In this document: positions 1 to 23,771 of the stretch, piece by piece
How positions within the stretch are numbered: the stretch's first letter is position 1
Layout of the letters: every line of letters begins with the position of its first letter
From: an uncultured Anaerolineae bacterium
GTDB lineage: Bacteria > Chloroflexota > Anaerolineae > Anaerolineales > Villigracilaceae
DNA: 47,873 bases
NCBI GenBank assembly: GCA_903846015.1
Contig: CAIMZS010000535.1
Span: 1 to 47,873, forward strand
Direction of reading: 5' to 3'
Position numbers and translations under genes: made by a program
Notes under the pieces: generated by a model
The model's database searches: none
Told to the model about the DNA's origin: nothing
Seen by the model: only the letters and a program-made list of their open reading frames with translations

Positions 1-355
1 CCTGTCGCTCCAGATTGAAGATATAAACAGCCCGATCCTTGCAATGGGAAAGATTAAACTGCAAAGCCGGATAAGTAGGAATAAAGGGTTTGCCAAGTTG
101 GCTGTAACCAAATTGAATATCAAACGGCTGCATTCCGAGATAACTGGCAACTAGAACTCTTAAAATTGCACGTCCGAGTACATAGTGACGATGGTCTTTC
201 TCGAAATGGAAACGCCCGGAACGCTCCTTTTCATCACTTGAGAGCAATGAATAATATTGTCCAATGGTTTGATCTGATGGGAGAGTGATAGACCAAATAT
301 GCACATCTTCATCCATCAAATGAAATTTAATGGATGAAGATGTGTTTTCGCGCAT
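1..355 (-). CDS. 4'-phosphopantetheinyl transferase (Sfp-type), 3' part missing
   Basis: The reverse strand encodes the first 118 residues of an Sfp/AcpT-type phosphopantetheinyl transferase; the rest lies beyond the left edge. These enzymes move phosphopantetheine from CoA onto the serine of carrier domains. I see the family pattern in order: a long N-terminal stretch with HIWSI, an R-F-x-F-x-K-D-x-x-x-Y segment, GRAILR, LGKPF and FNLSHCKD. The metal-binding and WxxKEA-type motifs would be in the missing part. The ATG at 353-355 has a GGAGG ribosome site five bases upstream, which fixes the start. It is the last gene of the minus-strand arm, 112 nt after the ABC transporter. Three carrier domains are encoded in the divergent PKS-NRPS genes, so these are its likely substrates (inference). 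Confidence 0.88.
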   Translation of the reverse strand, partial: MRENTSSSIKFHLMDEDVHIWSITLPSDQTIGQYYSLLSSDEKERSGRFHFEKDHRHYVLGRAILRVLVASYLGMQPFDIQFGYSQLGKPFIPTYPALQFNLSHCKDRAVYIFNLERQ

Positions 356-363
356 GATATCCT

Positions 364-381
364 CCGAAAGGAGTCTTTCGG
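364..381 (-). promoter_or_regulatory. Hairpin touching the PPTase ribosome-binding site
   Basis: A perfect 7-bp inverted repeat (CCGAAAG / CTTTCGG, 4-nt loop) lies directly upstream of the PPTase start. Its 3' arm shares the GG of the GGAGG Shine-Dalgarno sequence. It could limit ribosome access or act as a weak processing site. No T-run follows, so it is not a standard terminator. Confidence 0.4.
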
Positions 382-467
382 TCACAAAGCGCGTAATTCG
401 CTCCGTATTGTCCACATCGCTATCATATGATCCCATCCAATGCCGGCAAGAACAGGCTGGTAGATGA

Positions 468-3400
468 TTAGGCCTCTCTGCGTTTTTGCATAATGACTGT
501 ACCAATAAACAAGACCAGGGAGATCAAGCTTTGAGCACACCAGGTGGTGTACAAAGTATACAAATAAGTCTGACGGTCATTTTTATTGATGAAAGTCCAT
601 CCATACTCATCCTTATAACGCCGAATGGTAGACTCGGCTGAACCAACTGCGATCGCCCGTTTGACTTTTAATTCGGTCAAGTCTTTTTGATAGGTCTCGA
701 TGGCTGTCTTGTAAAGATCCTGCTCTTTTTTCCAGTCATCAATTTTGGTCTGATAGTCATCCCGAATTTTGGCTACTTTATCATTGTAAACATTTAGATC
801 GCCCAGGTATTTCTGCAACAGAAGAATATTGTTTGGATCCGCTGGCTTGTCTGGGGCTGGCGGGAATTTCGGCTGTTCTGGCTGCGGCCCTGGCTCAGAT
901 GGTTTAACCGGATCTTTCGTGTCAATCGCTACATCATAATATTTCCCAAGCCCAGGGAAGTTGCAGCTGGATTCACGCAAAGCATTTTCACCCATGCAGG
1001 TACAGTTTTTATTCTTCTCATCCAGTGTGAGTTTATCCTGCTTATCCTTGGGCAAACTCCAACACGAATCGGCGGCTACGTCGGATCCAGCTCCGCCGAT
1101 TGCTACGGACGCTTGGAAGGCCCAACGGCTTGAAGCAACCGCTGTTGTAGCACTGGGCAGCGGCACAAGTGCGCCACTGAGAACCATTTGCGGAATGATG
1201 AACATGATCAAAAGCAAAGGCGCGGAATTAGCGTTGGGAGCCAGGGCTGATGCAAAAAAGCCCATCATTGTACCAGCGACGATCAGTAAGAACACAGTAA
1301 TGAAGAAGAATAATTTTTCTTCATTACCACCCGGCACATCAAAAGCCAGGTACCGGATGACAGTATAACAACCCGCCTGATAAACCGCCAGCAGCAAAGC
1401 TATCCATACCTTTGAGAGGATATAGGATGAGAGTTGGAGATTAACCATCCTCTCTCGTTTGTATATATCCCGTTCTTTTACAAGCTCGCGCATAAACGCC
1501 AAACCACCGACCAGAATAGTGGTATTGGTCAACACGATCAGTGTAATGATCAAATCATTGAAGCTGCCATTTTTAAAGGCGAGCGGATTACGTCCAGCCC
1601 CGCTTGCAAGCATAAAATCGAGCGAGGCCATCAGAGGCGCAGTCACAAGCAGCAGAGCAAGACTGAATCGATCGCGGATAAGGATCTTTATATTTCGACT
1701 GGATAAGATAAAAAACTGACGCAAGGCAGAGACTTGCTTTTGCTGATTCGGCAGATTGCGGGCAGTCTTGGTAGCCTGTTTGCCCAGGTTGGCAGATTTC
1801 CCATCACTCAGCGGTTCGGAAATATACTTGCCATAAGCAGGGTTTTCTCGGAAGCGCTTCGCCCAATCCGATGCCTTCCCGAGTTGTTCGTGATCAAGCA
1901 AAGTATAGATGTAGTCAAACTCCATCGGGCTTGAACGCCGGTCACGATCCGTGCGGTATTTGTCAAAATAAGCCAGCGCTTCTTCGGGCGGTCCAAACCA
2001 AGCGAGGTACCCACCTCTAGCAAGAAACACAACTTTATCAGCCAGCATGACATTTTTAGTGGCGTGGGTGATCATTACGATTGTGCGGCCCTGATCGGCA
2101 AGACGGCGCATCAAGCGCATCAACTCAGTCTCCATACCCGGATCAAGACCAGAAGTAGGCTCATCCAGGAAGAAAAGCCCTGGCTTTGTGAGCAATTCCA
2201 CACCAATCGAGACTCGTTTCTGCTGTCCGCCACTCAATTGGCTAATTTGTGTATCGCGGCGATGCGTCAGGTCCAGGTCATCCATGACCTCGTCAATGCG
2301 CTTCAGACGTTCCTGGCGGGTTGTATCAGCAGGCATACGCAGCTGGGCGGCATAATCCAATGCTTGAAAAACAGAAAGCTCCATATGGATGATGTCTTTT
2401 TGTGGGACGTATCCGATAGTGGAGCGAATGGCGTCGAACTCTTTATAGACATCGATGCTGCCGTTCACAATAACACTGCCATGAGTGGCAGGGCGGTACC
2501 CCGTAATCGCGTCGACCAGGGTTGATTTTCCGCCACCGCTTTGCCCAACCACAACGATAAACTCTTTTGGCTTAAATATCAGGGATGTATCCTGAATGAT
2601 ATTCAGCTTTTTAGTTACCCATTTATTAAGACCAAAAACTTCAACCTTTACCCCACCTTCACTCTGGTCTGTTTTGGCAAACTCATGTTCATCGACCACA
2701 AAACGATATGGACCAATTTGGATGGCGTCGCCCGGGTGCACCCATACTTCCCCGCTGATGCTTTTCCCGTTGACAAAAGTACCGTTGCTGCTGCGCAGGT
2801 CCCGTACCCGGTAACGTTGCCCCACTTTTTCGATCTCGGCGTGAAAGCTGGATACGGTCGGGGCAGGCAGGACGATTATATTATCTGCATGACGGCCAAT
2901 GGTCATCAATTTATTCTCGGTAAATTGGATTTTTTGTTGAGCCGGGTTAGCATCGCCCTGGGGGGAAAGAAAATCGAGCGAGGCCATTTCGCCAGGATCC
3001 CAACCACCAATACGGATTTTCATGCCATGCCGCAGACGTGTAGGTTCCATCACTGGAACTCCATCCAACAGCAGCGCATTGCTGATATTGGGGATTGGGT
3101 TCAGATAATAATCAGCACCTCGTTTTTCCAATTCAGCGTGAAAGCGCGAGACAAAGCGGTTATTTAATACAACATCATTCTCAGGTAAACGCCCAATTCG
3201 CAGCCTCGTTCCAGTCAGTGTATAAATCTTTGGTTCCTGCCCAGATTCGTTGACAACCAACTGAGGGGGGATTTGAGCAAATGCTGCAGCAGCATCCATC
3301 ATAACAGTCTGATTTTTTGAGCCTTGGGTCTTCAAGACAGTGGCTTCGACAGGGGGCTTCGAAACAACATTCTCCGGTGTCTCTTTCGGTTCAGCAAGGG

Positions 3401-3815
3401 AAGGTGTTTTTGTAACCATGGGTCCGGCTGACGTGTTCAAAACAGTGGGGTCAGCGGTCGGCTGCGAATCCCGAGTATTCTGAAAAACGGTGGCTTCGCT
3501 CTTCGGTTCTGGCAATACAACAAGTTTAAGTTCTATGTCCAATCCCAGGCGAATCAAATCGCCATCGACAATCGGTTTTGGCGCTTGAATAAGAACATTA
3601 TTAAGATACGTCCCGTTGCTACTACCCAGATCTTCAATAATATAGCCGGATTCTTCATGTGATATGCGGGCATGCCGGCGCGAAATACCCTCGATACTTA
3701 TAACAACATCCGCAGGAGGAATGCGCCCCATAACCAGGGGCAGACTGGTCAGCGGGATTTTTTCACCTGTGCGCAGCCCTGTGGTGATAATGAGGTGATC
3801 CTGTTCCTTATTCAC
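468..3815 (-). CDS. Triple-FHA ABC transporter (ATPase and permease in one chain)
   Basis: This 1115-residue protein has three forkhead-associated domains (about 25-95, 198-272 and 302-372), an ABCG-like ATPase (about 390-620) and an ABC-2 type membrane region (about 710-1110). FHA1 and FHA3 keep the SSNGT phosphothreonine-binding motif; FHA2 lacks it. Walker A is GQSGGGKST (424-432), the signature LSGGQQKR (527-534) and Walker B LFFLDEP. Before the last membrane helix is a long loop of about 150 residues with four or more cysteines, a proline-rich stretch and a charged helical stretch. The GTG start at 3813-3815 is supported by GGAGG five bases upstream; a nearby ATG ends after three codons. 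FHA domains suggest control by a Ser/Thr kinase, but none is in the window. Context suggests export of the neighbouring pathway's product, which is inference. Confidence 0.9.
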   Translation of the reverse strand: MNKEQDHLIITTGLRTGEKIPLTSLPLVMGRIPPADVVISIEGISRRHARISHEESGYIIEDLGSSNGTYLNNVLIQAPKPIVDGDLIRLGLDIELKLVVLPEPKSEATVFQNTRDSQPTADPTVLNTSAGPMVTKTPSLAEPKETPENVVSKPPVEATVLKTQGSKNQTVMMDAAAAFAQIPPQLVVNESGQEPKIYTLTGTRLRIGRLPENDVVLNNRFVSRFHAELEKRGADYYLNPIPNISNALLLDGVPVMEPTRLRHGMKIRIGGWDPGEMASLDFLSPQGDANPAQQKIQFTENKLMTIGRHADNIIVLPAPTVSSFHAEIEKVGQRYRVRDLRSSNGTFVNGKSISGEVWVHPGDAIQIGPYRFVVDEHEFAKTDQSEGGVKVEVFGLNKWVTKKLNIIQDTSLIFKPKEFIVVVGQSGGGKSTLVDAITGYRPATHGSVIVNGSIDVYKEFDAIRSTIGYVPQKDIIHMELSVFQALDYAAQLRMPADTTRQERLKRIDEVMDDLDLTHRRDTQISQLSGGQQKRVSIGVELLTKPGLFFLDEPTSGLDPGMETELMRLMRRLADQGRTIVMITHATKNVMLADKVVFLARGGYLAWFGPPEEALAYFDKYRTDRDRRSSPMEFDYIYTLLDHEQLGKASDWAKRFRENPAYGKYISEPLSDGKSANLGKQATKTARNLPNQQKQVSALRQFFILSSRNIKILIRDRFSLALLLVTAPLMASLDFMLASGAGRNPLAFKNGSFNDLIITLIVLTNTTILVGGLAFMRELVKERDIYKRERMVNLQLSSYILSKVWIALLLAVYQAGCYTVIRYLAFDVPGGNEEKLFFFITVFLLIVAGTMMGFFASALAPNANSAPLLLIMFIIPQMVLSGALVPLPSATTAVASSRWAFQASVAIGGAGSDVAADSCWSLPKDKQDKLTLDEKNKNCTCMGENALRESSCNFPGLGKYYDVAIDTKDPVKPSEPGPQPEQPKFPPAPDKPADPNNILLLQKYLGDLNVYNDKVAKIRDDYQTKIDDWKKEQDLYKTAIETYQKDLTELKVKRAIAVGSAESTIRRYKDEYGWTFINKNDRQTYLYTLYTTWCAQSLISLVLFIGTVIMQKRREA

Positions 3816-3915
3816 TCATGCCTCCATAAAATAAATCAAAAAAAGAAATATCAATCTGGTCTTCCGTATTTATTGCAATTCTACAAAAGACCTCGCGGGC
3901 TGGACGATGTCAGAT

Positions 3916-5931
3916 TCAACCGCTTTTACCAACATCGCGGTCTCTCAATCGGAACAAGATATGCCTTACATTAAATACCAATGCAAAAGCCAGAAATAAT
4001 TGATAAAACCTGTTTTGCATCACCGTGGATAAAATACTAACAAAGGACAGATCCCCGCCCCAAAAATAGCGACCGATATTGACCAGCCCCATACTGAGCA
4101 GCGTTACCAATAAAACTCGTCCAGCCATGCGGCTAAGCACACTTGCTGAAAAAACCCATTTTCCCACAGTCGAACCCAGGTTAACAAGCGGGCGTCCAAG
4201 CGTGGTCTGGGTGCGGATCATCAAATCGTTAAAGGTCTTCCCAATTTCTTCCACATTCAGGAAGAAATTATCACCAGCATTGTCTTTCAGTTTTTTGCGC
4301 CACTTGAGTTTGACCAGCTCAGCCCTATCTTTCATAAATTCAGTATATTCTTGATAACGATCCAGTTGGTTATCCAGCCGCAAGACAATCGAGTCGTACA
4401 AGAGGGTTGCGCGAATCATTCGCAGCATATGCAAGTTCATCGGCAAGTTAAATTTCTGAGCCACTCCAATCAAAACAAACCACTGACGCGCCGAGGTACG
4501 CTCCCAATATTGGGTATATTTTGCAGGTGTATTAAAGGTGTGCAGCACACGCATGTACTCGCCCTGAGCGTGCTTAACCAGCAGCGGCAAATCAACGGGA
4601 GGTAAAGGTTCCATTAAGCTTAGAGATGCCCTGGTCATGGCTTCAACATCTTGATTCTTCATGTTGAGAACCATTTGTTCCAGGGCAATAAGCTGCTGAT
4701 TGTTGAAACTGCCACAGCTCCCAAAATCAATAAAGGTTATTTCATTATTTGGACGGATCAGAATATTCGCCGGGTGTGGATCCGCATGGAAAAATACATG
4801 CTCATCCATACTCCAAAAAGCCGCCCACATAATGCGCCTGGCAAGTACGGCAGGGTCAATATTGAGCTGACGCAACAACGCCAACCCTTGCGGTTTTTTT
4901 TCTTCCACCAGGGCAATGACTTCCCACAACCATAACCCGGAAACAAATTCTTGCACAAGAACTTCGTCCCCAGAGAGTTCAAAAAACACTTTGGGCGCGG
5001 TAAAAAAATCTCGCCCAGATTTATGGACATTCCGGCGGAATATATCTTGAAAACGACCTTCACGCCTGAAATCCAACTCTTCCATGAGGATTTCACGCAA
5101 TTCTGTGCGTACGTTGCGCGTGAATCCGGGACGTACAAGGGTCAGAAACTCTGCCAGTTCAGTTACCCAATCCAACACCTGGAGATCCGCACGGAACAAT
5201 TCCGCGATTCCGGGCCGCCTGATCTTCACAACCACTTTTTTCCTATCATCTGCTGATGTCACCCCAGCACTTATCTGAGACTCGGTGAGCTTTAGAGTGG
5301 CCTGGTAAACACAGGCCATAGAAGCTGACCCAATCGGAGTGGGATCAAACACATCAAACACTTCCTGCCATGGTCGATGGATGGTTCGCTCAATCGCTTT
5401 CAAGGCTTCATCAGTAGGAAAAGGAGGCATTCGATCCAACATTTTTGACAATTCAACACAATAAGCCCACGGCACCAGATCAATACGCATGGCCAACTGT
5501 TGGCCCAGTTTAACAAAGGTTCCACCAGCCCTTTCTAGTGCCTGACGCAAGCGAACAGCTCGCCTTTCAACGCTGTCACGCCTTAGAAGTTGATCAACAA
5601 AATTACCTACCAAGATACTGAGAAAAACATTGAACCATGTAAACATACGGCCAAAACTTCGCCAGAAATTTGGCCTGGATACGGCAGGTTCCACATAGGG
5701 CAGTTGCAACTGCGCCTCATACTGGTTGTCAAGTTGTTTACGGCGGGGAATACTCTGCAGAATGGATTCTAAAGGCAGCGGGGAAGCAACCTGATTAATA
5801 CTGGCAACAGACTCTTTCCGATGTTGCAACCAGGCATTGACACCATTCATTACCGATTGTCTTGCCTGGACAGTTTTTTTCTTAAAAGGTTCAGGATGAT
5901 GCAGGGAGGAACTGCGTAGATTTGTAGTCAT
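3916..5931 (-). CDS. AarF/ABC1/UbiB-family kinase, catalytic residues intact
   Basis: This 671-residue protein is an atypical kinase of the ABC1/UbiB family. The family KxGQ motif is KLGQ (141-144). The ATP-site lysine is in VVVKIRRPG (K236), the catalytic loop is HADPHPAN (382-389) and the metal motif is DFG (402-404). The alanine-rich loop is GSASMACVY, with Cys where many members have Gln. Two hydrophobic segments near the C-terminus (about 590-655) suggest a membrane anchor. Known members act on isoprenoid-lipid metabolism such as ubiquinone, mostly as ATPases. It starts 8 nt after the stop of the second AarF homologue, so the two are almost certainly co-transcribed. The next gene down is the FHA-ABC transporter. 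Its substrate is unknown; ubiquinone genes are not visible nearby. Confidence 0.92.
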   Translation of the reverse strand: MTTNLRSSSLHHPEPFKKKTVQARQSVMNGVNAWLQHRKESVASINQVASPLPLESILQSIPRRKQLDNQYEAQLQLPYVEPAVSRPNFWRSFGRMFTWFNVFLSILVGNFVDQLLRRDSVERRAVRLRQALERAGGTFVKLGQQLAMRIDLVPWAYCVELSKMLDRMPPFPTDEALKAIERTIHRPWQEVFDVFDPTPIGSASMACVYQATLKLTESQISAGVTSADDRKKVVVKIRRPGIAELFRADLQVLDWVTELAEFLTLVRPGFTRNVRTELREILMEELDFRREGRFQDIFRRNVHKSGRDFFTAPKVFFELSGDEVLVQEFVSGLWLWEVIALVEEKKPQGLALLRQLNIDPAVLARRIMWAAFWSMDEHVFFHADPHPANILIRPNNEITFIDFGSCGSFNNQQLIALEQMVLNMKNQDVEAMTRASLSLMEPLPPVDLPLLVKHAQGEYMRVLHTFNTPAKYTQYWERTSARQWFVLIGVAQKFNLPMNLHMLRMIRATLLYDSIVLRLDNQLDRYQEYTEFMKDRAELVKLKWRKKLKDNAGDNFFLNVEEIGKTFNDLMIRTQTTLGRPLVNLGSTVGKWVFSASVLSRMAGRVLLVTLLSMGLVNIGRYFWGGDLSFVSILSTVMQNRFYQLFLAFALVFNVRHILFRLRDRDVGKSG

Positions 5932-5939
5932 CGCTACCC

Positions 5940-7877
5940 CTATACTTCCTTATCATCCAGACGAAACAACACGGTCCGACCGCTAACAAAAATCAATACC
6001 AAAATAACACTATGATAAATGGGGTTCGTCACTGCGAGGAAAAAAACATCATGGAGGTTAAATGGTTGTTGTGTGCCGATAAAAGAAAACAAAGCTGTGA
6101 CTACAACTGCTGCAGCGGTCACAAACAGCGATTGGGTTAAAAATCGAATTAAGGTATATGCTGTAAATGACCATTTGCTCATTAAAACGTTGAAATTTAC
6201 AGATGGTAACGCAAACATGTGGGTCGTTCGATTCAGCAAACCTTCAACCGTCTGGGCAACTCGATCCAGGCGGATAATAAGCTGCTCATTTGATTTCCCA
6301 TCAAGGTGCTCCAGGATGTTATTTGTTACACGACGGCGAGCCTGTTCAGCTTTGTAGTGATCAAATTTTCGATACTGGCTAACAAAGTCAATTTCAGGAT
6401 CCAACCTTACAGCCATAGATTCGAGCAAAAGGGTTGCACGTAATAGACGCAGCACTTCTATATCAATGTTGATCCCGTATTTACGAGCCAGATTGATGAT
6501 CCCGAGCCACTGGGTAACTGAAGTTCTATTCTGCCATGGCTGACTGTTGGGCGTCGCTTCCAGCGCATACAGAAGCTGCCAATTATAGTTTTCCAATTCT
6601 TGAGTCAATTCAATTAAATCGATGGGCGGCAAAGGCTCCATCAGGATCAAAGATGCACGCGCCATGTTCTGCGGGTCACGTTGTTCGGCATAATATAAGA
6701 TCTGACGCATAGCCTGTTGACGCGTGCGGCTGAGAGTACCAGTGGCCACAAAATTTATAAAAAAAAGTTTGCTGTCACGGCCAATAATGATGTTATTGGA
6801 GGTTGGGTTGGCATGAAAGAAAAGGTTTTCCTCGCGAGACCAGTAATTTATCCACAATAAACGTTTGGCGACCTTTTTGGGGTCGATATTCATGGCGCGA
6901 GCCTGCTCAAGCACGGCCTCATTTCCCAGTTCTATGGCAGCCAGTAATTCCCACAACCACATTCCGCTGGCGAAGTCGTTAACAACCACTTCCTCCCCTG
7001 AATACTCAAGATAAATCCTGGGCGCAGAAAAGAAACCCTTGCGAGATTCTTCCGCCTTGCGACGAAAGACATCCTGGCGGCGAGCTTCCTGGACAAAATC
7101 CAATTCTTCAATCAATAAGCTGCGAAATTCTTCGCGCAAGCCCTTGGTAAACCCGGGCCGAAAAATCGTGATAAATTCGGCAAAGGATAGCAACCAATCA
7201 AAGGCTTCCAGATCAGCCATAAATTGTTCACCCACTCCAGGACGGCGCACTTTGACAGCTACCTTCTCCCCGTTATACAAGATGGCCTGGTATGTACAGG
7301 CAACTGAAGTAGACAGGATAGGCTGGGGATCAAAGCGTGAAAATACGGCTGATAGTGGTTTTTTAATTGCACGTTCAACAATTCCAATGGCTTGTGCTAC
7401 CGGGAAAGGCGGCACGTGATCAGCCATACAGGATAATTCATTACTGAATATCATTGGGATCAGATCAACGCGCATCGACAGATGAATACCAAGCTTAACA
7501 AATGACCCCCCATTACGCTCAAAAGCATGCCTGAGACGTGCAGCGCGTCTTTTGATTGTATCTCTACGTGTCAACACATCCCAAAAAGTATTGAAATAAT
7601 AATAAAACACCAATTGAATACAGGAAAAAAAACGCCTGGCAGCAGCGATATGACTCGCATTAAAGGAAACAAATCGCATTTGAGGCAAGTCTGTGTCATC
7701 AGCCGAAACCTTGATAAACTGCCGGCGTGGTAAATCAGCGATTATTCCACGGCGATCATTAATCTCAATGGATTCTCCGAAGGACTCCCCGGTTCTTCGT
7801 TTTACCCCCGGCTTTTTTGAGGAAGACCCTGGTTCTTGTCGAATTGGGGTTGATGAATTGGGAGCAAGGTTTTGCAT
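5940..7877 (-). CDS. AarF/UbiB-family pseudokinase
   Basis: This 645-residue paralogue aligns end to end with the neighbouring AarF protein, including the C-terminal hydrophobic pair, but its catalytic positions have changed. KxGQ is KLGI (128-131), HADPHPAN is HANPTSNN (355-362) and DFG is NFV (375-377). The ATP-site lysine (VAVKV, K209) and the EELDF segment remain. I checked the codons at 6743-6800 on the reverse strand: both aspartates needed for metal and phosphotransfer are asparagine. A reading frame of this length without stops suggests a selected protein, not a decaying gene. It probably partners or regulates the intact kinase encoded 8 nt downstream. The ATG at 7875-7877 has only a weak ribosome site, so the start is less certain. 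Confidence 0.88.
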   Translation of the reverse strand: MQNLAPNSSTPIRQEPGSSSKKPGVKRRTGESFGESIEINDRRGIIADLPRRQFIKVSADDTDLPQMRFVSFNASHIAAARRFFSCIQLVFYYYFNTFWDVLTRRDTIKRRAARLRHAFERNGGSFVKLGIHLSMRVDLIPMIFSNELSCMADHVPPFPVAQAIGIVERAIKKPLSAVFSRFDPQPILSTSVACTYQAILYNGEKVAVKVRRPGVGEQFMADLEAFDWLLSFAEFITIFRPGFTKGLREEFRSLLIEELDFVQEARRQDVFRRKAEESRKGFFSAPRIYLEYSGEEVVVNDFASGMWLWELLAAIELGNEAVLEQARAMNIDPKKVAKRLLWINYWSREENLFFHANPTSNNIIIGRDSKLFFINFVATGTLSRTRQQAMRQILYYAEQRDPQNMARASLILMEPLPPIDLIELTQELENYNWQLLYALEATPNSQPWQNRTSVTQWLGIINLARKYGINIDIEVLRLLRATLLLESMAVRLDPEIDFVSQYRKFDHYKAEQARRRVTNNILEHLDGKSNEQLIIRLDRVAQTVEGLLNRTTHMFALPSVNFNVLMSKWSFTAYTLIRFLTQSLFVTAAAVVVTALFSFIGTQQPFNLHDVFFLAVTNPIYHSVILVLIFVSGRTVLFRLDDKEV

Positions 7878-7943
7878 CGGGTAATTGCGTCCTGGCTGTT
7901 GGGAAATATCTATCCCGGCTTCAACTCGGGAATAGTTATTTTT

Positions 7944-8411: not shown

Positions 8412-8428
8412 GTCAACCCTCGATTTCG

Positions 8429-14763: not shown

Positions 14764-14775
14764 TTGAATACTCCC

Positions 14776-17700
14776 ATGACCCAATCTGACCCAAACACCA
14801 GCTTCAACCAGATCCAGAAAGAGTTAAAGGAAATGATTCTTGAGACCTTTGGCAATGATGATTCGAACATATCCCTGCCAAACGACATCCCAATTCTTGA
14901 ACTGGGTATCAGCTCTCTTGCCCTGGTAGAAGGCATGAGGCGCGTATATGACCGGTTTGGTGTGCTGATTTCAATCAGGCGCATTATTGAAGGACAGGTC
15001 ACACTTGGCGGCCTGGCATTATATATTGACAAAGAAATCCACAAAGAGCACACTCAAAAAAACAAGGGTGGTGCCCCGCGCGGCAAATGGATTGTCGAAC
15101 GGGAAATCCCCCTGGCTGCATCCCAGCAGCACAGCGCCTTTTTAAGCCGGTATTCAGGTGAGGCAGGTGCTGCCTTTAATGAAAGCGTGCTTGTTAAACT
15201 GTCAGGTGTTTTGGATGGGCCCGCCCTGCAGGCTGCCGTGGAAGAAGCCGGCAATAGGTATGAGGCCCTGCGGACAGCCCTGCATTCTGATTCAAACTCG
15301 CTCCAGATCGGCAGCGGGGAGGCTCTTGATGTGCAGGTTGAGGCTGTTCCAAAAGGTAAGCTGGGGCAGTGGATGAAAGCTGCGGTCGGTGTGCCTTTTG
15401 AACCTGGGAAACGACTCTTTAGGGCAGAACTACTGCGAATTAATGAAGATGAGCATATCCTGGCTTTGACCGGTCACTTACTGGTGATCGATCAGGAATC
15501 GCTAGGAATCGTATTGGAAGATATTGCCAGGCTTTATTCGGCTTTTACCAGGGACAAGCCTGCCACGCTCATGGCTCCCTGCCTGCAGTGGACGGATTAC
15601 GTGTCCTTGGGAGATACCCTCGAAGCCAGGCAGTCGCTGAAAGATGCATATAAATTCTGGGAAGAATCAAGCAGCGGGTTGCCTCAATTGGAACTTCCCG
15701 CCAGCCACCCCCGTCCCCCGGTAAAAAAATATTCGAGCGCCAGGTTTTCTACCCGTCTTGATGCGCCTGCCGCTGAATTAATCCGAGATTGGGCCGTCTC
15801 CAACAAAACCACCCCGAGTACAATTATCCTGGCAGCTTTCAACATCTTCTTGCATCGTTTAACTACTGCCAGCGAGATCGTAACCGGTGTGCAGAGTGAA
15901 CCACTCTACCTTGATACCGGAATCCCGTCAGTTGCCGTCACGCGCAATATGCTGCCCCTACGCTCTTCATTTGAACCAGGTAGGAGTTTTTCAGACACAA
16001 TTCATGAAATGGGCCGTCTGCAGGATCTGGCAAATAAACACAGGCTGCTGTCCCTGGCCGAAATGATCCCGTTACTCAAACTGCAGCGAGACCAGAGCCG
16101 TTCGCCCATATTCACGGTTGCCTTCCGCACCATCAACAGGCCTGCCGCACCTCAATTTGAGGGGTTGCACACGAGCCACATGCTGCCTCCCAGCCCGGGT
16201 GCGCGCTACGATCTTGAATTGATCAGCATCGAAGACCAGGAAGGCATAAACCTGGTGTTTGATTACAGCACGGAACTTTTTGAACAAGAGACCATTTCTC
16301 GCTGGGCAAATTGCCTAAAAGCATTGCTACGCTCTGCCCTGGATAACCCATCAACAACCTGTGGGCTTCTTCCGGTCATGCCGGGAGATGAATTGGAAAT
16401 AGTTTTACGCGAATGGAACAAAACCGAAACAGCTGTTGATCAAAGCCAGACGATCCTGGATCTGATCATTAAGCAGGCACATACCAGGAACGGCCAAACA
16501 GCGGTCCGGTATGGGAACACTTCGATCAATTACGATCAACTACTTGAACAAACTGAAGGCATCGCTGTTTTACTGTTTAATAATGGAGTAAAAAAAGGGG
16601 ACCGGGTGGGAATTTTCCTCAAACGCTCCACCGGGCTCATCCCTGCCATTCTGGCAGTATGGCGGCTCGCAGCCATGTACGTGCCCATCGATACAGCCTT
16701 CCCGGGGAAGCGCATTGCGTTCATGCTGAGTGATGCGAGTGTTCAAACTGTGATCACCAGCCGCGATCTTTTACCCATGCTCGAAAAAGAATCCGGCAGC
16801 TGCAAAATTATTTATCTGGAAGATGTGCGGGACCATAACACTATCCTGCCGGATGGAATACAACCTGCAGAGAACGAAGACAGCGCATACATCATGTTCA
16901 CTTCAGGTTCGACAGGAAAGCCAAAAGGAGTGGAAGTGCGGCACCGGGCGCTGCTTAACTTCCTGATGGCCCTCCAGGAGTATATCCAAATTACGCCTCG
17001 AAGCAAGATGCTGGCCCTCACAACCATATCTTTCGATATTTCCACCGCCGAATTATTTCCACCCCTGATTTTGGGGGGGGAGGTGGAAGTGGCTGAGGAT
17101 GGCCTTGCAGCTGACGGTATCCAGTTGGCAGAGCGTATTACCACCACCAGGCCCACCCATGTGCAGGCCACCCCATCAAGCTGGAAAAGCCTGCTGGAAA
17201 CTGGATGGCTCGGTTGGGAAAATTTGTGCCTGATGTCTGCCGGAGAGGCCTTGAACCGGGAACTTTCGGAACAATTACTAAAAAACGACACGCGATTACT
17301 GAATTTGTACGGACCTACTGAAACAACGGTTTATTCCACAGCTTGCCAGGTAACAAGCGAGCCGGGCAAAGCAGTGCGCATAGGACGACCGCTCTTCAAC
17401 ACGCGCCTTTATGTGCTCGATTCCCGGATGCAGCCCATGCCTATTGGTGCTGCAGGGGATCTATACATCGGCGGGGAAGGGGTCTCACCCGGTTACTGGA
17501 ACATGCCGGAATTAACTGCCGAGCGTTTCCTGCCGGATCCATTTCACCCAGGCGAACGAATATACAGGACTGGGGACCTGGCATATTTTATGCCGGACGG
17601 CAGCCTGATTTGCCTGGGCCGGGCCGACGAACAGGTAAAAATCCACGGGGTGAGAGTTGAACTCGGAGAAATTGAAACTGCCCTGCTCGGGCTTGCCGAG

Positions 17701-19488
17701 GTTCGAGATGCAGTAGTCACACCGTGGCGGGATTTGCACGGTGATTTACAACTGGTGGCCCATATCATCCCAAGCCAATCGGAAGCTCCGGATGCAGGTA
17801 ACCTGCGCGAACAGCTCCGCGAAAAACTACCGGAAGTGATGGTGCCGCCGTACTTTTTATTCACAGGCTCATTTCCGCATACCGCAAACGGCAAGATCCA
17901 TCGCGCCGCACTACCAACGCCTACCACTGCCAACCAGAATCAGCGGCCTCAAAATGTTCTTCCTCCAGCGACCCAAACGGAAAAGGCGCTGGCAGAGGCA
18001 TGGGCGGATGTTATCGGCATCGATGTCCATATGATTGGGCGAGATTCAGACTTCATGGATTTGGGCGGGCACTCCCTTTTGATGACCCGCATGATGCTCG
18101 AAGTGCGTAAAATATTCCAGACCGTTTTCAATATGCGCGAATTCTTTGACGCACTGACCATAAGAAAATTCGCCGCCCTAGTCGATGAACGCCGCGCAAA
18201 AGCAAGCAGTGTGATACAGACCGGGCAGCCCGCGCAGACTGAGCGCGATGCCGAATGGGCCCGCCAACGGATGGCCTTTCTTTCTCGGGAAGCGCAGCTG
18301 CCCCATTACCTTGCCCCCGCACGCGGGCTCAGCTTCAAACCGGCGGAGCAAATCGAAACTGTATTTTTGACCGGTGCCACCGGTTTTCTGGGTGCTTACA
18401 TTGTCAAGGAGATCTTGAAAAATACCCAGGCAAATCTTTATTGCCTGGTTCGCCCCAAACGCGGCGAAAACAGCAAGCAGCGTATTGAAAGACAGATGCG
18501 CAATTTCGATATTTGGCCTGGTGATGAAGCCTGGCAGTCAACCTGGGATGCGCGCATACAGGTGGTCGATGGCGATATCACCCTACCGCGCCTGGGCATG
18601 AGTGACCATCGTTATGAGACGCTGGCCCGCCAGGTGGACGCCATCTTCCACGGCGCAGCCCACGTCAATTTCATCTATCCCTATGAAGCCCTGCGTGCCA
18701 CCAATGTGCTCGGCGTTCATGAAATCATCCAATTTGCCTTTCATGCCCGAATCAAGCCCGTGCACCACCTCTCCACTGCTGCCATCTGGCCAATGGGTGC
18801 AAAGTACACTTTTTATGAAAAAGACCCGATCGACCACAACGGGCTTCTTAATCTAGGCTATGATGAAGCCAAATGGGTCGGTGAAAAATGTCTGCGCAAT
18901 GCAGCCGAACGCGGCCTGCCTGTGGCGCGCTATCGTCCGGGGGAGGTCGGCGGCGATAGTATCACGGGGCACTGCGTCACCGATCATTTTCTGATCGCCT
19001 GTATCAAGGGTTTTCTCCAATTCGGCGCTTTCCCGGAGCTGGATATCGAAGTGGATGTGGCCCCAGTGGATTACGTGGCCAAATCAATGGTTTACCTGGC
19101 TTTCCACCGCAAGCCTTTTGGCCGTGCTTTCCACCTGACAAACCCCTCACGCAGGCATATGAAGGATGCGCTGGCGTTCCTGCGCAATCTTGGTTATCAG
19201 TTTGATGTGCTGCCCTTTAGTGACCTGCGCAACAGGTTGGTCAGCAGTCCAAATTTTGCATCGAACGCCCTGTTTGCCTATCAGGCCGCCCTGGAAGACA
19301 TGGATCAGGTCAGCATGCAGCTGCCCAACTACGACACCCGTGAAACCCGGCGTGAGCTGGAAGGTTCCGGTATCGTCTGCGCCCCTGCTGATGAAAAACT
19401 GTTCGAAACGTATTTGCATTATTTGCGCGGCATTGGTTTTATGCCGGAGCCCGAAAATTTTGCTTCTGGAGTGGGTGGACATGCTTAA
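14776..19488 (+). CDS. NRPS: carrier-C-A-PCP-thioester reductase
   Basis: A 1570-residue NRPS counting from ATG 14776; an in-frame TTG at 14764 is an alternative, and neither has a clear ribosome site. Order: carrier domain (about 5-85, S47 in LGISSL), condensation (about 100-525), adenylation (about 540-1030; TSGSTGKPKG near 709-718, FDIS, NLYGPTET, YRTGD, GRADEQVKIHG, NGKIHR), PCP (about 1055-1130, S1100 in LGGHS) and reductase (about 1190-1500; GATGFLG from 1200, Y1362 and K1366). The condensation motif HHxxxDG is HLLVIDQ (H234 to Q240): the second His is Leu and Gly is Gln. My hand-read A-domain code is D-I-A-Q-M-A-L-V-Y-K, which matches no substrate I know. The reductase would release the chain as an aldehyde or alcohol. 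The stop overlaps the next gene by 8 nt. Confidence 0.95.
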   Translation: MTQSDPNTSFNQIQKELKEMILETFGNDDSNISLPNDIPILELGISSLALVEGMRRVYDRFGVLISIRRIIEGQVTLGGLALYIDKEIHKEHTQKNKGGAPRGKWIVEREIPLAASQQHSAFLSRYSGEAGAAFNESVLVKLSGVLDGPALQAAVEEAGNRYEALRTALHSDSNSLQIGSGEALDVQVEAVPKGKLGQWMKAAVGVPFEPGKRLFRAELLRINEDEHILALTGHLLVIDQESLGIVLEDIARLYSAFTRDKPATLMAPCLQWTDYVSLGDTLEARQSLKDAYKFWEESSSGLPQLELPASHPRPPVKKYSSARFSTRLDAPAAELIRDWAVSNKTTPSTIILAAFNIFLHRLTTASEIVTGVQSEPLYLDTGIPSVAVTRNMLPLRSSFEPGRSFSDTIHEMGRLQDLANKHRLLSLAEMIPLLKLQRDQSRSPIFTVAFRTINRPAAPQFEGLHTSHMLPPSPGARYDLELISIEDQEGINLVFDYSTELFEQETISRWANCLKALLRSALDNPSTTCGLLPVMPGDELEIVLREWNKTETAVDQSQTILDLIIKQAHTRNGQTAVRYGNTSINYDQLLEQTEGIAVLLFNNGVKKGDRVGIFLKRSTGLIPAILAVWRLAAMYVPIDTAFPGKRIAFMLSDASVQTVITSRDLLPMLEKESGSCKIIYLEDVRDHNTILPDGIQPAENEDSAYIMFTSGSTGKPKGVEVRHRALLNFLMALQEYIQITPRSKMLALTTISFDISTAELFPPLILGGEVEVAEDGLAADGIQLAERITTTRPTHVQATPSSWKSLLETGWLGWENLCLMSAGEALNRELSEQLLKNDTRLLNLYGPTETTVYSTACQVTSEPGKAVRIGRPLFNTRLYVLDSRMQPMPIGAAGDLYIGGEGVSPGYWNMPELTAERFLPDPFHPGERIYRTGDLAYFMPDGSLICLGRADEQVKIHGVRVELGEIETALLGLAEVRDAVVTPWRDLHGDLQLVAHIIPSQSEAPDAGNLREQLREKLPEVMVPPYFLFTGSFPHTANGKIHRAALPTPTTANQNQRPQNVLPPATQTEKALAEAWADVIGIDVHMIGRDSDFMDLGGHSLLMTRMMLEVRKIFQTVFNMREFFDALTIRKFAALVDERRAKASSVIQTGQPAQTERDAEWARQRMAFLSREAQLPHYLAPARGLSFKPAEQIETVFLTGATGFLGAYIVKEILKNTQANLYCLVRPKRGENSKQRIERQMRNFDIWPGDEAWQSTWDARIQVVDGDITLPRLGMSDHRYETLARQVDAIFHGAAHVNFIYPYEALRATNVLGVHEIIQFAFHARIKPVHHLSTAAIWPMGAKYTFYEKDPIDHNGLLNLGYDEAKWVGEKCLRNAAERGLPVARYRPGEVGGDSITGHCVTDHFLIACIKGFLQFGAFPELDIEVDVAPVDYVAKSMVYLAFHRKPFGRAFHLTNPSRRHMKDALAFLRNLGYQFDVLPFSDLRNRLVSSPNFASNALFAYQAALEDMDQVSMQLPNYDTRETRRELEGSGIVCAPADEKLFETYLHYLRGIGFMPEPENFASGVGGHA

Positions 19489-20227
19489 AGGGAAAAAGAT
19501 CTTGGTCACCGGCGGGAGCCGGGGGATTGGAACTGCCATTGTGCGCAGAGCCATGCAGGAAGGTGCAGATGTCGCCTTTACGTACCTGCACAGCATGGAT
19601 GAAGCACACTTGCTTGCATCCGAATTGTCAGCGAGTTATTCTTCCCAACGTTGTCTGTCGATTGAATGTGACGTGACTGATATGCAGGCCATGGAAACAG
19701 CGGTTAAGAACTTGATCAGCGAGTTCGGCGCCATTGATGGGCTGGTCAACAACGCCGGCATCACACGCGACGTGGTCTTTGCGCGCATGAGCCGTGCCCA
19801 GTGGGATGGGGTTTTGAACACCAACCTGGGCAGCGTCTACAATGCCACCAAGCCGCTCATTTTACAAATGGTGAAGCAGCGCGGCGGTTCGATCGTGAAC
19901 ATCACTTCGGTGGCTGCCATTTATGGCAACAACGGGCAAACCAACTATTCCGCCTCCAAGGCCGGGATCATTGGTTTTACCAAGTCGCTATCCGCAGAGG
20001 TTTCGCCGCAAAACATCCGCGTCAATGCGGTTGCGCCTGGTTATATCAATACCGATATGCTCGGTGTGCTCGACCCCGATACGCTCGCTTATATAAAATC
20101 GCGCATTTCCATGCGGCGCCTGGGGAACGTCGACGATATTGCGCCGATGGTTTGTTTCCTGCTGTCAGACAACGCCGGCTACATCACCGGGCAGATCATC
20201 CAGATCGACGGGGGCATTACCCTGTAA
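19481..20227 (+). CDS. SDR ketoreductase, FabG-like (likely trans-acting KR)
   Basis: This 248-residue short-chain dehydrogenase resembles 3-oxoacyl-ACP reductase FabG. It has the NADP-binding TGGSRGIG near the N-terminus, NNAGIT, catalytic S143 in NITSV, Y156 and K160 in YSASK, and the usual C-terminal IDGGITL. The reading frame is open much further upstream, but that part lies inside the NRPS reductase in another frame. The ATG at 19481, which overlaps the NRPS stop by 8 nt, gives the normal FabG length and begins right at the Rossmann fold. The overlap points to translational coupling. Because the PKS has DH but no KR, the simplest role is reduction of the beta-keto intermediate in trans. 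A role in fatty-acid synthesis cannot be excluded. Confidence 0.92.
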   Translation: MLKGKKILVTGGSRGIGTAIVRRAMQEGADVAFTYLHSMDEAHLLASELSASYSSQRCLSIECDVTDMQAMETAVKNLISEFGAIDGLVNNAGITRDVVFARMSRAQWDGVLNTNLGSVYNATKPLILQMVKQRGGSIVNITSVAAIYGNNGQTNYSASKAGIIGFTKSLSAEVSPQNIRVNAVAPGYINTDMLGVLDPDTLAYIKSRISMRRLGNVDDIAPMVCFLLSDNAGYITGQIIQIDGGITL

Positions 20228-20293
20228 CCAGTTTTTTACATTTACGAATCACACCCTGATCAATATCCAATTCTGACCGAAGGAGAGCCGATA

Positions 20294-21286
20294 ATGACTG
20301 GAATTATCTTTTCAATTTTGATCTTGGTATTTTTGGTCGGGTCAAGTTCGCTCTATTTTCTACTGCGAACGCCCGGCAAGCGATACACTGGGCCAGGCTC
20401 AGTTTCTGACCTCTATGACGCCTGGACTGTCGATAAAAAAATGAAATTCTATTGGGGAAACCACCTGCACGCCGGGCATTACGGTCTGCCATCTCATCAC
20501 AAGGATTTCATTCGTGCCAAATTTGATATGATTGATGAGATGGTGCACTGGGGCATTGCTGAGCCAGATCCAATGCTCTTCAACCGGCTGGAAAAACCTA
20601 TTCCTGGTGCTGAGCCCGTAAAAATCCTGGATATTGGCTGTGGATTGGGAGGCAGCGTCTCATACCTTGCAAAACGCTGGTCAAAAAGCGCTCATATTAC
20701 TGGCATCACCATCTCCAACGCCCAGGCTCGTTTCGCTATCGACTTGGCTCGTTCGGGCGACCAAAAAAATGTGGCCTTTATGCTTTGCGATGCCATGAAT
20801 CAAGCCTTCGCCCCCGAGAGTTTTGATATTATCTGGACACTCGAATCCGAAATGCATATGCCGGATAAAGAACGCTTCGTAAATGAGATCGTGCGGCTTC
20901 TCAAACCTGGCGGAAGGGTGGTAACTGGCACCTGGAATCTGCGTGATACACGTTCCGTACCATTGACTCCATCAGAAAAGGAAAAGGTTCAATACATGTT
21001 GGATGAGTGGTGCGCTACCAAGTTCGATGGCATCCAGGAAATCGTGGAACGTTTTGAGCGACACGGCTTGATTGATGTGCTTGGGGAAGATTGGACCGAG
21101 GCAACGCTCCCGAGCTGGAGGGAAGCTGTTTTGGTTGCCGTGCGTGATGTGCGCGGACTGGCAGGGAACAGCCTGGATTTGGCGTTGTCACATATTCGTG
21201 ATGCCTATACGATTTTGCTGCATGACTCGGCCTTCCGCAAGGGATTATGTGAGTACGGATTATTTCGTGGGCAAAAGCCAGGCTGA
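20294..21286 (+). CDS. Membrane-anchored SAM-dependent methyltransferase
   Basis: A 330-residue class I methyltransferase that begins with one hydrophobic segment (about 3-25, then LLRTPG), so it is probably tethered to the membrane. The catalytic part has the motif I sequence ILDIGCGLGGS, followed by ITGITISNAQ and a motif IV-like FDIIWTLESEMHM. The region before motif I (LYDAW, YWGNHLHAGHYG) resembles tocopherol/ubiquinone-type methyltransferases and small-molecule O-, N- or C-methyltransferases. ATG at 20294 has AGGAGA eight bases upstream. It follows the ketoreductase by 66 nt and is flanked by that gene and its decayed copy. I infer a tailoring methylation of the PKS-NRPS product; the target atom cannot be predicted. 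Confidence 0.88.
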   Translation: MTGIIFSILILVFLVGSSSLYFLLRTPGKRYTGPGSVSDLYDAWTVDKKMKFYWGNHLHAGHYGLPSHHKDFIRAKFDMIDEMVHWGIAEPDPMLFNRLEKPIPGAEPVKILDIGCGLGGSVSYLAKRWSKSAHITGITISNAQARFAIDLARSGDQKNVAFMLCDAMNQAFAPESFDIIWTLESEMHMPDKERFVNEIVRLLKPGGRVVTGTWNLRDTRSVPLTPSEKEKVQYMLDEWCATKFDGIQEIVERFERHGLIDVLGEDWTEATLPSWREAVLVAVRDVRGLAGNSLDLALSHIRDAYTILLHDSAFRKGLCEYGLFRGQKPG

Positions 21287-21388
21287 CTGGGGGTCCACTT
21301 CTTGGCGGAGTAATCTCGCACCAGTATCCGTTTACCGGATGCGATTGGATGTGCCATGCGTAAATCCATAGTTGGTTCTTCGCTGCCG

Positions 21389-21879
21389 GATGGGCTGGCT
21401 AACAACGCCGGCATCACCCGCGACGTGGTCTTTGCACGCATGAGCTGCGCCCAGTGAGATGGGGTTTTAAACACCAACCTGGGCAGCGTCTGCAATGCCA
21501 CCAATCCGCTCATTTTACAAATGGTAAAGCAGCGCGGCGGTTCGATCGTGAACATCACATCCGTGGCTGCCATTTATGGCAACAACGGGCAAAACAACTA
21601 TTCCGCATCAAAGGCCGGGATCATTGGTTTTGCAAGTCGCTTTCCGCCGATGTGTCGCCGCAAAACATACGTGTCAATGCGGTTGCGCCTGGTTATATCA
21701 ATACCGATATGCTCGGTGTGCTCAACCCCGATACGCTCGCATATATAAAATCGCGCATTTCCATGCGTTGCCTGGGGAAGGTGGACGATATTGCGCCGAT
21801 GGTTTGTTTCCTGCTGTCAGACAATGCCGACTACATCACCGGGCGAGTCATCCAGATCGACGGGGGCATTACCCTGTAG
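21389..21879 (+). pseudogene. Decayed partial copy of the FabG-like ketoreductase
   Basis: These 491 nt align with 19736-20227, the last two-thirds of the intact ketoreductase, with about 36 base differences by my hand count (roughly 93% identity). The copy lacks the N-terminal Rossmann fold. A TGG became TGA at 21455-21457, and one base is lost near 21632, in the ACCAAG/GCAAG segment, so the frame breaks just after the catalytic region. Several changes are synonymous, and the last codons and stop remain recognisable. The 100 nt before it (21287-21388) match nothing I know. With the intact copy it forms direct repeats around the methyltransferase gene. Confidence 0.9.
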
Positions 21880-21911
21880 AACCAATATATAAGATCACCA
21901 GATATCTGCAG

Positions 21912-23771
21912 TTAGCCTTTCCGCTCGGCTGGATAATCCCGCACCAACCCTCTCCTCGCCCACATGGCGGGCTTATTTACATAAATCCATTTGCGTATTT
22001 GGATGGCGAGGGTATAGTATAGAAAACCTCTGCCCCAATGCAGTATACGGTAAGGGAATTCATAAATCAGCCATTCTCGCAGCCCTTGTGGAGCAAATAT
22101 CCCGGTGAAATTATCGCGCATTGACTCCAGAGGGCGGGGTGCGGTTTCCGGTTCGAGCGTGCCGGAGTTTTCCCACTTTTCAGGATCAAGCTGCATGCGC
22201 CAGGCATTCACCCAGGGGCGGGATTTTAGAGATGGATGATCAGGATAACATTCTGAAACAGCCTGCCAAAATAATACGAGCGCCACTTCCTCAATCCGGT
22301 CCAGATTTTTACGCGCGACTTGAAGGGCCTGGACAGGGCTGCGCCTGGATGCCAGGTCGAGATGCAGCAGCATCATCAAGTGCATACGGGTCAGGTCACC
22401 GCGCACATGCATGGGGCGCGGTGAACCCTTTTCGGACCAATCTGCGAACAACTGCTGAACCCGATCATTCAATAATCGAAAGCGTTCGCCCAGGCTGAAA
22501 ACTTCTGGAGTCGGGTGGGTTAATAAGCCCTGTACATAGAGCTGGTACGTCCAGGCCCAATAGATGGCAGTATCCCAGGTCAGCTTGGATGTGAAGATCT
22601 GCGCATGCCCAAACGTACGGTACATCCCCTGGTAGAAACCCAGGCAGATTTGGTAAAGATTCTCGATCACCAGCCGGTTATAGTCATTGACGGCTGTCTC
22701 AGTCAGCGTGCCTGTGCGATCACGGCGGATCATTTCCACAGTCAGCGTGTTGGCAATTGCGATAAAGTCTGAACCTGTGCTGTAGAGTGGATCCAAAAAG
22801 AAACCAGCTTCGCCCACACAACTCCAGCGCTGGTGTGAAAACACCTGGGCCGAGGCATAACTGTAGCGCTTCAGACTTAAAAAATCCATGGGCGGTTCAT
22901 TTCGAATAAACTCCCACATCTTGGGTTCATTCGCCTGAAGCCATTCAAGCGCCTGGGAATAGGATTTGCCATAGGTATTGTGCGGGTGAATATCATCATC
23001 CGTGACTATGCCAATGCTGGTGGCTCCTGATCCGAGTGGAATTAACCAGACCCAATATCCTCGCCCCATCAGGTGGTTTGTGGAAAAATAGCGGTCTTCC
23101 ACCGAGCCAATCCGCCAGGCCTGGCCGCCCTGTATTCCCATCGTATCGATATCGATCCGGCCTTGATAGCGCCACCAGGCTGCGCTGGCCCGGTGTTCGT
23201 GCTGCCGTTTTAACCCGAGCTTGGTTTGCAGCAATCGCCTTCGTCCCAGCGCATCGGTCACCCACCGTCCAGTCACCACAAATTCTTCATTGTCGCTCTT
23301 TCGCCGGCATCTTATTACATGCGCTGCATCCCCTTCGGCCAGTTCAATATCATCCACACTGCTGCCCTCGAAAAGCGTTACCCCCATCGCCTTTACCATA
23401 TCCCGCAGATCATTTTCCAAACGGCCACGGTCGATCTGGTAAGATGGTACCGGGGGAAACAGTTCTATGCCGGTCTCCGGTCTCGCAGTCAGCGGCTCCT
23501 GCCCCTGGCCCATGAAAAATCGCAATCCCAGCTTGGGCAGATGCCTGGTGTGGAAATACTTCTCCAACTGCAAAACCTGCCCAAAATAGTAGGTTCCCAG
23601 TTCGATCGACGACTCGCCAACTTTGAAGGCCGCTTCAGGCAGGGGAGATGTTAAACGGTCGATTACGGCTACGGATAGATCAGGTAATTCCAGCCGCAGC
23701 TGTCGCGCCAGGGTCAGCCCGGCCAGGCCACCGCCGCAGATCACAACGTCAAAATAAGTTTGGGTTTGCAT
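21912..23771 (-). CDS. Flavin-dependent halogenase-like FAD monooxygenase
   Basis: A 619-residue FAD protein, convergent with the PKS operon. It has the N-terminal dinucleotide fold VVICGGGLAGL (GGGLAG about 13-18), KVGESS, a LPKLGLRFFMG segment that could carry the halogenase lysine, and W240-V-W242-L-I-P245, the WxWxIP motif typical of flavin-dependent halogenases. The C-terminal 200 residues are helical and not typical of the short bacterial halogenases. ATG at 23769-23771 follows GGAG. No flavin reductase gene is nearby, so reduced FAD would come from a general reductase. Some family members with this motif are not halogenases, so chlorination or bromination of the product is a good guess but not proven. 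Confidence 0.82.
   Translation of the reverse strand: MQTQTYFDVVICGGGLAGLTLARQLRLELPDLSVAVIDRLTSPLPEAAFKVGESSIELGTYYFGQVLQLEKYFHTRHLPKLGLRFFMGQGQEPLTARPETGIELFPPVPSYQIDRGRLENDLRDMVKAMGVTLFEGSSVDDIELAEGDAAHVIRCRRKSDNEEFVVTGRWVTDALGRRRLLQTKLGLKRQHEHRASAAWWRYQGRIDIDTMGIQGGQAWRIGSVEDRYFSTNHLMGRGYWVWLIPLGSGATSIGIVTDDDIHPHNTYGKSYSQALEWLQANEPKMWEFIRNEPPMDFLSLKRYSYASAQVFSHQRWSCVGEAGFFLDPLYSTGSDFIAIANTLTVEMIRRDRTGTLTETAVNDYNRLVIENLYQICLGFYQGMYRTFGHAQIFTSKLTWDTAIYWAWTYQLYVQGLLTHPTPEVFSLGERFRLLNDRVQQLFADWSEKGSPRPMHVRGDLTRMHLMMLLHLDLASRRSPVQALQVARKNLDRIEEVALVLFWQAVSECYPDHPSLKSRPWVNAWRMQLDPEKWENSGTLEPETAPRPLESMRDNFTGIFAPQGLREWLIYEFPYRILHWGRGFLYYTLAIQIRKWIYVNKPAMWARRGLVRDYPAERKG

Follow-up and report, generated by a model that had tools for sequence, protein, structure and literature searches.

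In this study, we examined a stretch of 47,873 nucleotides (the window; bases 1-47873 of contig C535) from the 6.5 Mb draft genome of an uncultured member of the Chloroflexota (97.41% complete, 5.85% contamination). It holds genes for an iterative-type polyketide synthase (PKS), a HemN-like radical S-adenosylmethionine (SAM) protein, a nonribosomal peptide synthetase (NRPS) and a stand-alone ketoreductase (KR). Judged by homology, motif and domain order, the core of this locus is an iterative PKS system of the polycyclopropane family (POP-iPKS) with a predicted product. We consider it probable, with some reservation, that the locus represents a new architectural class of POP-iPKS clusters, whose enzymes would carry the synthesis through to a released and exported polycyclopropanated lipid. 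In our best reading, the enzymes would build a polycyclopropanated acyl chain iteratively, link it to an amino acid and release it as an aldehyde or alcohol, and this specialised lipid would then be exported or deposited. According to PMC13389473, POP-iPKS pathways are the only known source of biomolecules with more than two cyclopropanes. The rare enzyme trio behind jawsamycin in Streptomyces is probably present in a different phylum, where it is combined with different finishing machinery.

POP-iPKS systems such as those of jawsamycin and fuelimycin comprise a KS-AT-DH-ACP synthase, a stand-alone KR and a stand-alone cyclopropanase, and the POP cyclopropanases are described as carrying an invariant Cx7CxxC motif, formed in Jaw5 by C68, C76 and C79 (Yin et al. 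2026, PMC13389473). The window encodes a multidomain KS-AT-DH-ACP synthase free of KR and ER domains, a stand-alone KR in the same cluster and a HemN-like protein with Cx7CxxC. Pfam and NCBIfam scans of the proteins matched KS, AT, DH and carrier domains in the Jaw4/Pfl1-like PKS (9016-13089, forward strand) and no KR, ER or TE domain. Its active-site motifs (KS Cys-His-His, AT GHSxG and AFH, DH His and Asp, ACP Ser) are kept in the window and in the homologues covering them. The FabG-like, Jaw6/Pfl3-like KR (19481-20227, forward; a longer open reading frame (ORF) spans 19166-20227) possesses the Ser-Tyr-Lys of short-chain dehydrogenases/reductases (SDR) and an NAD(P) motif. The Jaw5/Pfl2-like radical SAM protein (13236-14648, forward), a putative cyclopropanase by motif, homology and predicted structure, bears Cx7CxxC at C75, C83 and C86. 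A first-pass annotation, made from the sequence alone, had named a PKS, a HemN-like radical SAM protein, an NRPS-reductase, a FabG-like KR, a methyltransferase and a halogenase-like gene, and the scans recovered all of them where it had placed them.

How widespread is this combination? A radical SAM scan of genome contigs, which was based on short peptides and finds close relatives only, returned 17 loci: eight from Chloroflexota (L003-L010), one from a Labilibaculum metagenome-assembled genome (MAG) of the Bacteroidota (L016) and eight from Actinomycetota (L011-L015, L017-L019). Over the best segment, radical SAM identity to the window protein amounts to 74-87% in Chloroflexota, 60% in Labilibaculum and 60-63% in Actinomycetota; in the alignment, the window protein is 58-63% identical to its eight Actinobacterial homologues. 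The relatives returned by the scan assign the cluster to the Chloroflexota. Cx7CxxC recurs in all 17 loci. A PKS gene of the same type lies upstream of the radical SAM gene in every locus (truncated at a contig end at least in L006 and L010) and a KR gene downstream in 16 of the 17, the sole miss being the contig end of L006. The order is PKS, radical SAM, KR in Actinomycetota, and the NRPS gene is inserted between the latter two in Chloroflexota and in the Labilibaculum MAG. Among the cluster members, conservation is highest for the radical SAM protein, with 87% identity to both L003 and L004, where the PKS reaches 69% and 66%, respectively.

Control HemN-like ORFs, a small set comprising L002 from the window's own genome, L039 and L030 (probably a single gene from a second genome) and E. 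coli HemN (1olt), have CxxxCxxC instead of Cx7CxxC, and alignment with 1olt places a 4-residue insertion in the window protein. Its AlphaFold2 (AF2) model (mean pLDDT 83, pTM 0.85) gave HemN 1olt as best structural match (TM 0.72). A functional anchor comes from Streptomyces klenkii, whose cyclopropanase is reported to work in a fuelimycin chimera strain (PMC13389473). The S. klenkii genome contains exactly one match at E<=1e-60, namely L014, which is 60-62% identical to the window protein; from species name and copy number we infer that L014 is the tested cyclopropanase, kleCP.

HemN-like radical SAM cyclopropanases are also found elsewhere, and one might ask if the window protein could form a single ring together with the methyltransferase encoded at 20294-21286, as C10P and C10Q do for CC-1065. 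Both gene types are present in the window, and C10P/C10Q are an established pair (PMC6050322). However, such enzymes are described with CxxxCxxC (PMC6050322), as opposed to Cx7CxxC in the window, and the methyltransferase gene is not in view in four of eight clusters (L003, L004, L009, L010), while the radical SAM gene occurs in all. Given the motif and the optional methyltransferase, we rejected this two-component model, which appears very improbable.

The tailoring genes were compared among the eight Chloroflexota clusters, window included, that are visible for some kilobases to the right of the KR gene; L006, the ninth, is not. The SAM-dependent methyltransferase (forward; PF08241, 2.6e-19) is in view in half of them (window, L005, L007, L008), as is the halogenase-like flavoprotein (window, L003, L004, L010), so that both are optional tailoring genes and not core features. 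A P450 gene is located between NRPS and KR in L003, L007 and L009, and L008 has an ORF of equal size there. The flavoprotein of the window (21912-23771, reverse strand) matches PF04820 with 43.9 bits (cut-off 21) and a CmlS-type model with 6.6e-18, far under that model's cut-off. It contains YWVWLIP, and WxWxIP, which we take to be the motif of flavin-dependent halogenases, is found in four of four aligned sequences. Solved relatives are mostly halogenases, with weak scores of 12-67 bits (best 67.4 bits), and the families matched also hold monooxygenases and reductases. A halogenated product was consequently demoted, as the gene is optional and sequence alone cannot tell halogenation. The first-pass annotation was right about the presence of both genes; given their patchy occurrence, its proposal that the product is possibly halogenated and methylated has a weak footing.

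These genes also bear on a second alternative, according to which the locus makes an ordinary hybrid polyene PKS-NRPS product that is halogenated and methylated, with the HemN-like protein catalysing a single radical reaction, be it C-methylation or another one, instead of cyclopropanating repeatedly. The window indeed has methyltransferase and halogenase-like genes, and HemN-like enzymes include the methyl or methylene transferases NosN, TbtI and ChuW (PMC6050322). Yet motif, partner genes and domain order fit the POP family, and each of the two tailoring genes is in view in only half of the clusters; we regard this alternative as quite unlikely.

Around the tailoring genes, the window shows two further peculiarities. 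A decayed part-copy of the KR gene (21389-21878, forward; blastn, 92.9% identity over 491 bases to 19736-20226) is located on the far side of the methyltransferase gene, with the intact KR on the near side, and we read it as a remnant left by a recent duplication or insertion. A Na+/H+ exchanger gene adjoins the halogenase-like gene both in the window (24039-25280) and in L003 (20223-21395), in differing relative order.

What sets the Chloroflexota clusters apart from the Actinobacterial ones is the NRPS gene (14764-19488, forward), which encodes a carrier-C-A-PCP-thioester reductase protein. Its terminal domain matches the thioester reductase model TIGR01746 with 277.8 bits (cut-off 213.35) and shows the NAD(P) motif and YxxxK of such reductases, and an extra carrier domain is present at the N-terminus. 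Across the loci, the NRPS retains the carrier Ser, A3, the A10 Lys, the PCP Ser and the motifs of the reductase (one stretch of L004 is masked at the A10 Lys). The domains hence support the hybrid PKS-NRPS product with reductive release that the first-pass annotation had predicted. Best among solved relatives of the A domain is linear gramicidin synthase, and in the alignment the domain somewhat resembles the second A domain of that enzyme; among full-length NCBIfam models, MxcG and AusA score best, yet far below their cut-offs. Read by eye against what we take to be the PheA positions, the specificity residues are roughly D-I-A-A-M-A-L-V-Y-K, for which we claim no substrate, and the residue aligned with the presumed PheA position 239 varies among A, V, N and I across the A domains. 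The domain scans matched no thioesterase family in the window cluster, which has the NRPS-reductase gene in its place. This lack is not disqualifying, since a thioesterase is not common to all POP-iPKS clusters, jawsamycin being without one.

Taken together, we propose the following pathway. In iterative rounds, the KS-AT-DH-ACP synthase would add malonyl units to the chain, each beta-keto group would be reduced by the stand-alone KR, and the DH domain would remove water to give an enoyl-ACP. The radical SAM cyclopropanase would be expected to act on the resulting double bonds, and repetition of the cycle would produce several cyclopropane rings in a row, with double bonds remaining where extension outruns cyclopropanation. 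For this reason, the unsaturation predicted by the first-pass annotation is likely to hold only in part. The finished chain would then pass to the N-terminal carrier of the NRPS, the C domain would couple it to a PCP-bound amino acid, and the product would leave through the reductase domain as an N-acyl amino aldehyde or alcohol. Tailoring by the optional enzymes (P450, methyltransferase, flavoprotein) may differ by lineage. A phosphopantetheinyl transferase (PPTase) would activate the carriers, and a set of divergently transcribed genes would handle and export the very hydrophobic lipid.

This left-hand arm, separated from the PKS gene by 604 bases, runs entirely on the reverse strand. Closest to the core lies a gene for a conserved, uncharacterised small basic helical protein of 155 amino acids without Pfam match (7944-8411), which is absent from the first-pass annotation, followed by two ABC1/UbiB (AarF) proteins, ABC1b (5940-7877; PF03109, 1.3e-40) and ABC1a (3916-5931; PF03109, 5.3e-51), and a transporter with FHA domains, an ATPase and an ABC-2 membrane part (FHA-ABC; 468-3815; PF00498, PF00005, PF01061). 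The PPTase (2-505; PF22624, 7.5e-14) is cut by the contig start and represented by its N-terminal part only. With this qualification, the divergent run reported by the first-pass annotation was confirmed, and its assignment to the locus is supported. The small protein, ABC1b, ABC1a and FHA-ABC occur together in all eight other Chloroflexota clusters (nine of nine with the window), and relatives consistently lacking the arm were not encountered. Recurrence of the same core and arm in eight further Chloroflexota loci indicates that the gene set is not a product of chance. The arm was found directly in L003, L004 (ABC1b as two ORFs), L005, L007, L008 and L009; for L006 it lies on a second contig (L036), divergent to a PKS end, and for L010 it is complete on L037 (746-12259), to the right of the core instead of the left. 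In these eight clusters, ABC1a is 51-73% and the small protein 38-61% identical to the window proteins. The AF2 model of the small protein is helical, with a pTM of 0.25 that is too weak for a fold search. The window, L004, L006, L007, L009 and L010 have a PPTase-like ORF next to the arm or the core, one of those outside the window being Pfam-confirmed (L035); a search with the 168-amino-acid PPTase fragment gave no match in L003 and L005 over about 12 kb past the arm, and the contig of L008 is too short for this search. We propose that the arm may serve in lipid handling.

Relatives of single arm genes were also seen outside such clusters. At class level, the small protein was detected in two of 298 genomes (E<=1e-4) and ABC1b in two of 249 (E<=1e-100), in both cases the own genome and G610. 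The G610 locus L047 (1785-11751) encodes a relative of the small protein (24%) and one ABC1 protein behind a PapA-like acyltransferase, an AMP-binding enzyme and a cNMP-ABC/FtsX exporter, and its 13.9 kb contig gave no radical SAM match. It presents another lipid-like setting, in which the same lipid-handling pair possibly serves another lipid. In the Actinacidiphila locus L017 (12222-14442), an ABC1 protein is encoded soon after the KR, behind a small unrelated acidic protein rich in Asp, Ala and Gly, which echoes the Chloroflexota arm. Two Chloroflexota genomes hold further FHA-ABC paralogues (54-55%) off-cluster, in unrelated-looking neighbourhoods (L038, L039, L040).

The cluster is rare. 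At E<=1e-90, the radical SAM gene was found in one of 400 genomes of the phylum (the own genome), at 1e-60 in two of 396 of the class (the own genome and G717, with a match almost at the position of L010) and at 1e-50 in one of 296 sampled Bacteroidota genomes (that of L016); none of the 20 same-family genomes listed in the class search at 1e-60 contains it. A distribution so scattered across three phyla hints at horizontal transfer of the cluster. The Labilibaculum locus (L016, 152-12985) reads PKS, radical SAM, NRPS, KR, then an epimerase-type SDR and a convergent PPTase, at a G+C content of 36% compared to 52-60% in the eight Chloroflexota loci. The NRPS-type examples (nine Chloroflexota, one Bacteroidota) are not all independent, L007 and L008 being near-copies. 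A tree of the radical SAM proteins separates NRPS-type from Actinobacterial rows with a support of 94/100. Its root, formed by two HemN/HemW-like rows on branches of about 10 changes per column, is unreliable and L016 sits on a long branch, so that only this split was used. Among the Actinobacterial loci, the KR gene of L014 is followed by genes for a TauD-type oxygenase and a class III aminotransferase, which presumably fit a jawsamycin-type nucleoside. Acyl-CoA thioesterase-type genes in L012, L015 and L018, an alpha/beta hydrolase gene in L011 and an MMPL exporter gene in L012, all after the KR, fit a release of acids. Pairwise identities of radical SAM protein, PKS, KR and NRPS covary across loci (Spearman 0.85-0.89), and those of arm and core reach a rho of 0.91 (KR with ABC1b). 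These coefficients come without significance test from sets that omit L008 as near-copy of L007 and in part lack L010 and L004.

Several observations weigh against the proposed pathway. The rho of PKS with ABC1a, and likewise of PKS with the small protein, is -0.19 (15 pairs each). The Gly of the DH motif HxxxG gives way to Glu or Asp in most Chloroflexota, including the window, and to Asn in L016. AF2 confidence falls below 50 at residues 79-87 of the radical SAM protein, which span the second and third cysteines. Jaw5, Pfl2 and Log2 were likened by description, and the connection with the S. klenkii gene that was tested runs via species name and copy number. FHA-ABC was found at E<=1e-100 in eight of nine genomes searched, the miss being the Labilibaculum MAG, which also gave no match to ABC1b at 1e-10; its contig starts 152 bases before the PKS. 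As the arm accompanies all Chloroflexota clusters and was not found in Labilibaculum, we regard it as tied to the Chloroflexota form and not required by the core. Most importantly, the C domain reads [GS]Hx4[DE] in place of the expected HHxxxDG in all ten sequences showing it (window and nine loci), which makes the amide step between chain and amino acid doubtful and the weakest part of the mechanism.

But, if the C domain is inactive or simply passes the chain on, what would the NRPS be for? In this case, the POP core would be read correctly, no amide would form, and the reductase would release a simple polycyclopropanated aldehyde, alcohol or ester. The uniformly degenerate motif and the variable residue at the presumed PheA position 239 speak for such a scenario. 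Nevertheless, the C motif retains its second His, and A3, the PCP Ser, the A10 Lys (masked in one row) and the motifs of the reductase are likewise conserved, which would fit a module that works as a whole; we consider an amide-free product unlikely. The C-domain motif and the lack of a direct comparison with Jaw5 lowered our confidence in the full route to an N-acyl amino aldehyde or alcohol, and likewise in a more far-reaching idea, which we put forward only tentatively and with more doubt than belief. In this idea, the non-actinobacterial class might supply uncultured Chloroflexota with a polycyclopropanated N-acyl amino aldehyde or alcohol as a structural lipid, laid down in cell envelope or granules by the ABC1/UbiB proteins, the helical protein and FHA-ABC, and passed between phyla, instead of a Streptomyces-style antibiotic.

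The discussion of PMC13389473 names divergent cyclopropanases from outside Streptomyces as ones to characterise; its authors worked with Streptomyces coelicolor M1152 as laboratory host. The window and its nine NRPS-type relatives offer nine Chloroflexota examples and one from Bacteroidota, with cyclopropanases 58-63% identical to the Actinobacterial rows and built-in reductive release. They also provide a genetic handle on the role of paired ABC1/UbiB proteins for a specialised lipid. A heterocyst-glycolipid or polyunsaturated fatty acid (PUFA)-type cluster was considered in view of the AarF, PPTase and reductase genes and set aside: domain order and radical SAM homology point elsewhere, glycolipid clusters are set apart by description, and 'ABC1 kinase' is not mentioned among the papers listed by our literature search on this point. 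Among the papers listed by our searches for earlier descriptions, which covered sources other than subscription journals, no title or abstract reports a POP cluster from Chloroflexota.

Compared with known systems, the core resembles Jaw4/Jaw5/Jaw6 of jawsamycin (FR-900848) from Streptomyces, described as a KS-AT-DH-ACP iPKS, a HemN-like cyclopropanase with Cx7CxxC and a stand-alone KR, and the same trio is described for fuelimycin (pfl1-4) and Log1-4, also from Streptomyces (PMC13389473). For the jawsamycin cluster, PMC7341893 lists the accessions AB920328 and MT553334. In the account of PMC13389473, jawsamycin is a polyketide-nucleoside hybrid without thioesterase gene, and fuelimycin and Log release a free fatty acid via a stand-alone thioesterase. 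The window cluster, in contrast, has an NRPS-reductase gene between cyclopropanase and KR, no recognised stand-alone thioesterase, an ABC1/FHA-ABC arm and a Chloroflexota host. C10P and C10Q share the HemN-like radical SAM cyclopropanase type and differ by CxxxCxxC, an obligate methyltransferase partner and the lack of PKS-coupled iteration in their description (PMC6050322), as against Cx7CxxC and an optional methyltransferase here. With MxcG, AusA and linear gramicidin synthetase the NRPS has the C-A-PCP-R layout in common, unlike them it has an N-terminal carrier, a degenerate C motif and a predicted iPKS feed. The view of the first-pass annotation that no described cluster has this gene set therefore stands, within the scope of our searches, for the whole set and not for the core, which matches the jawsamycin/fuelimycin family. 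As far as our searches go, new in relation to described POP clusters are the NRPS-reductase gene, the left arm and the hosts, Chloroflexota and one Bacteroidota MAG.

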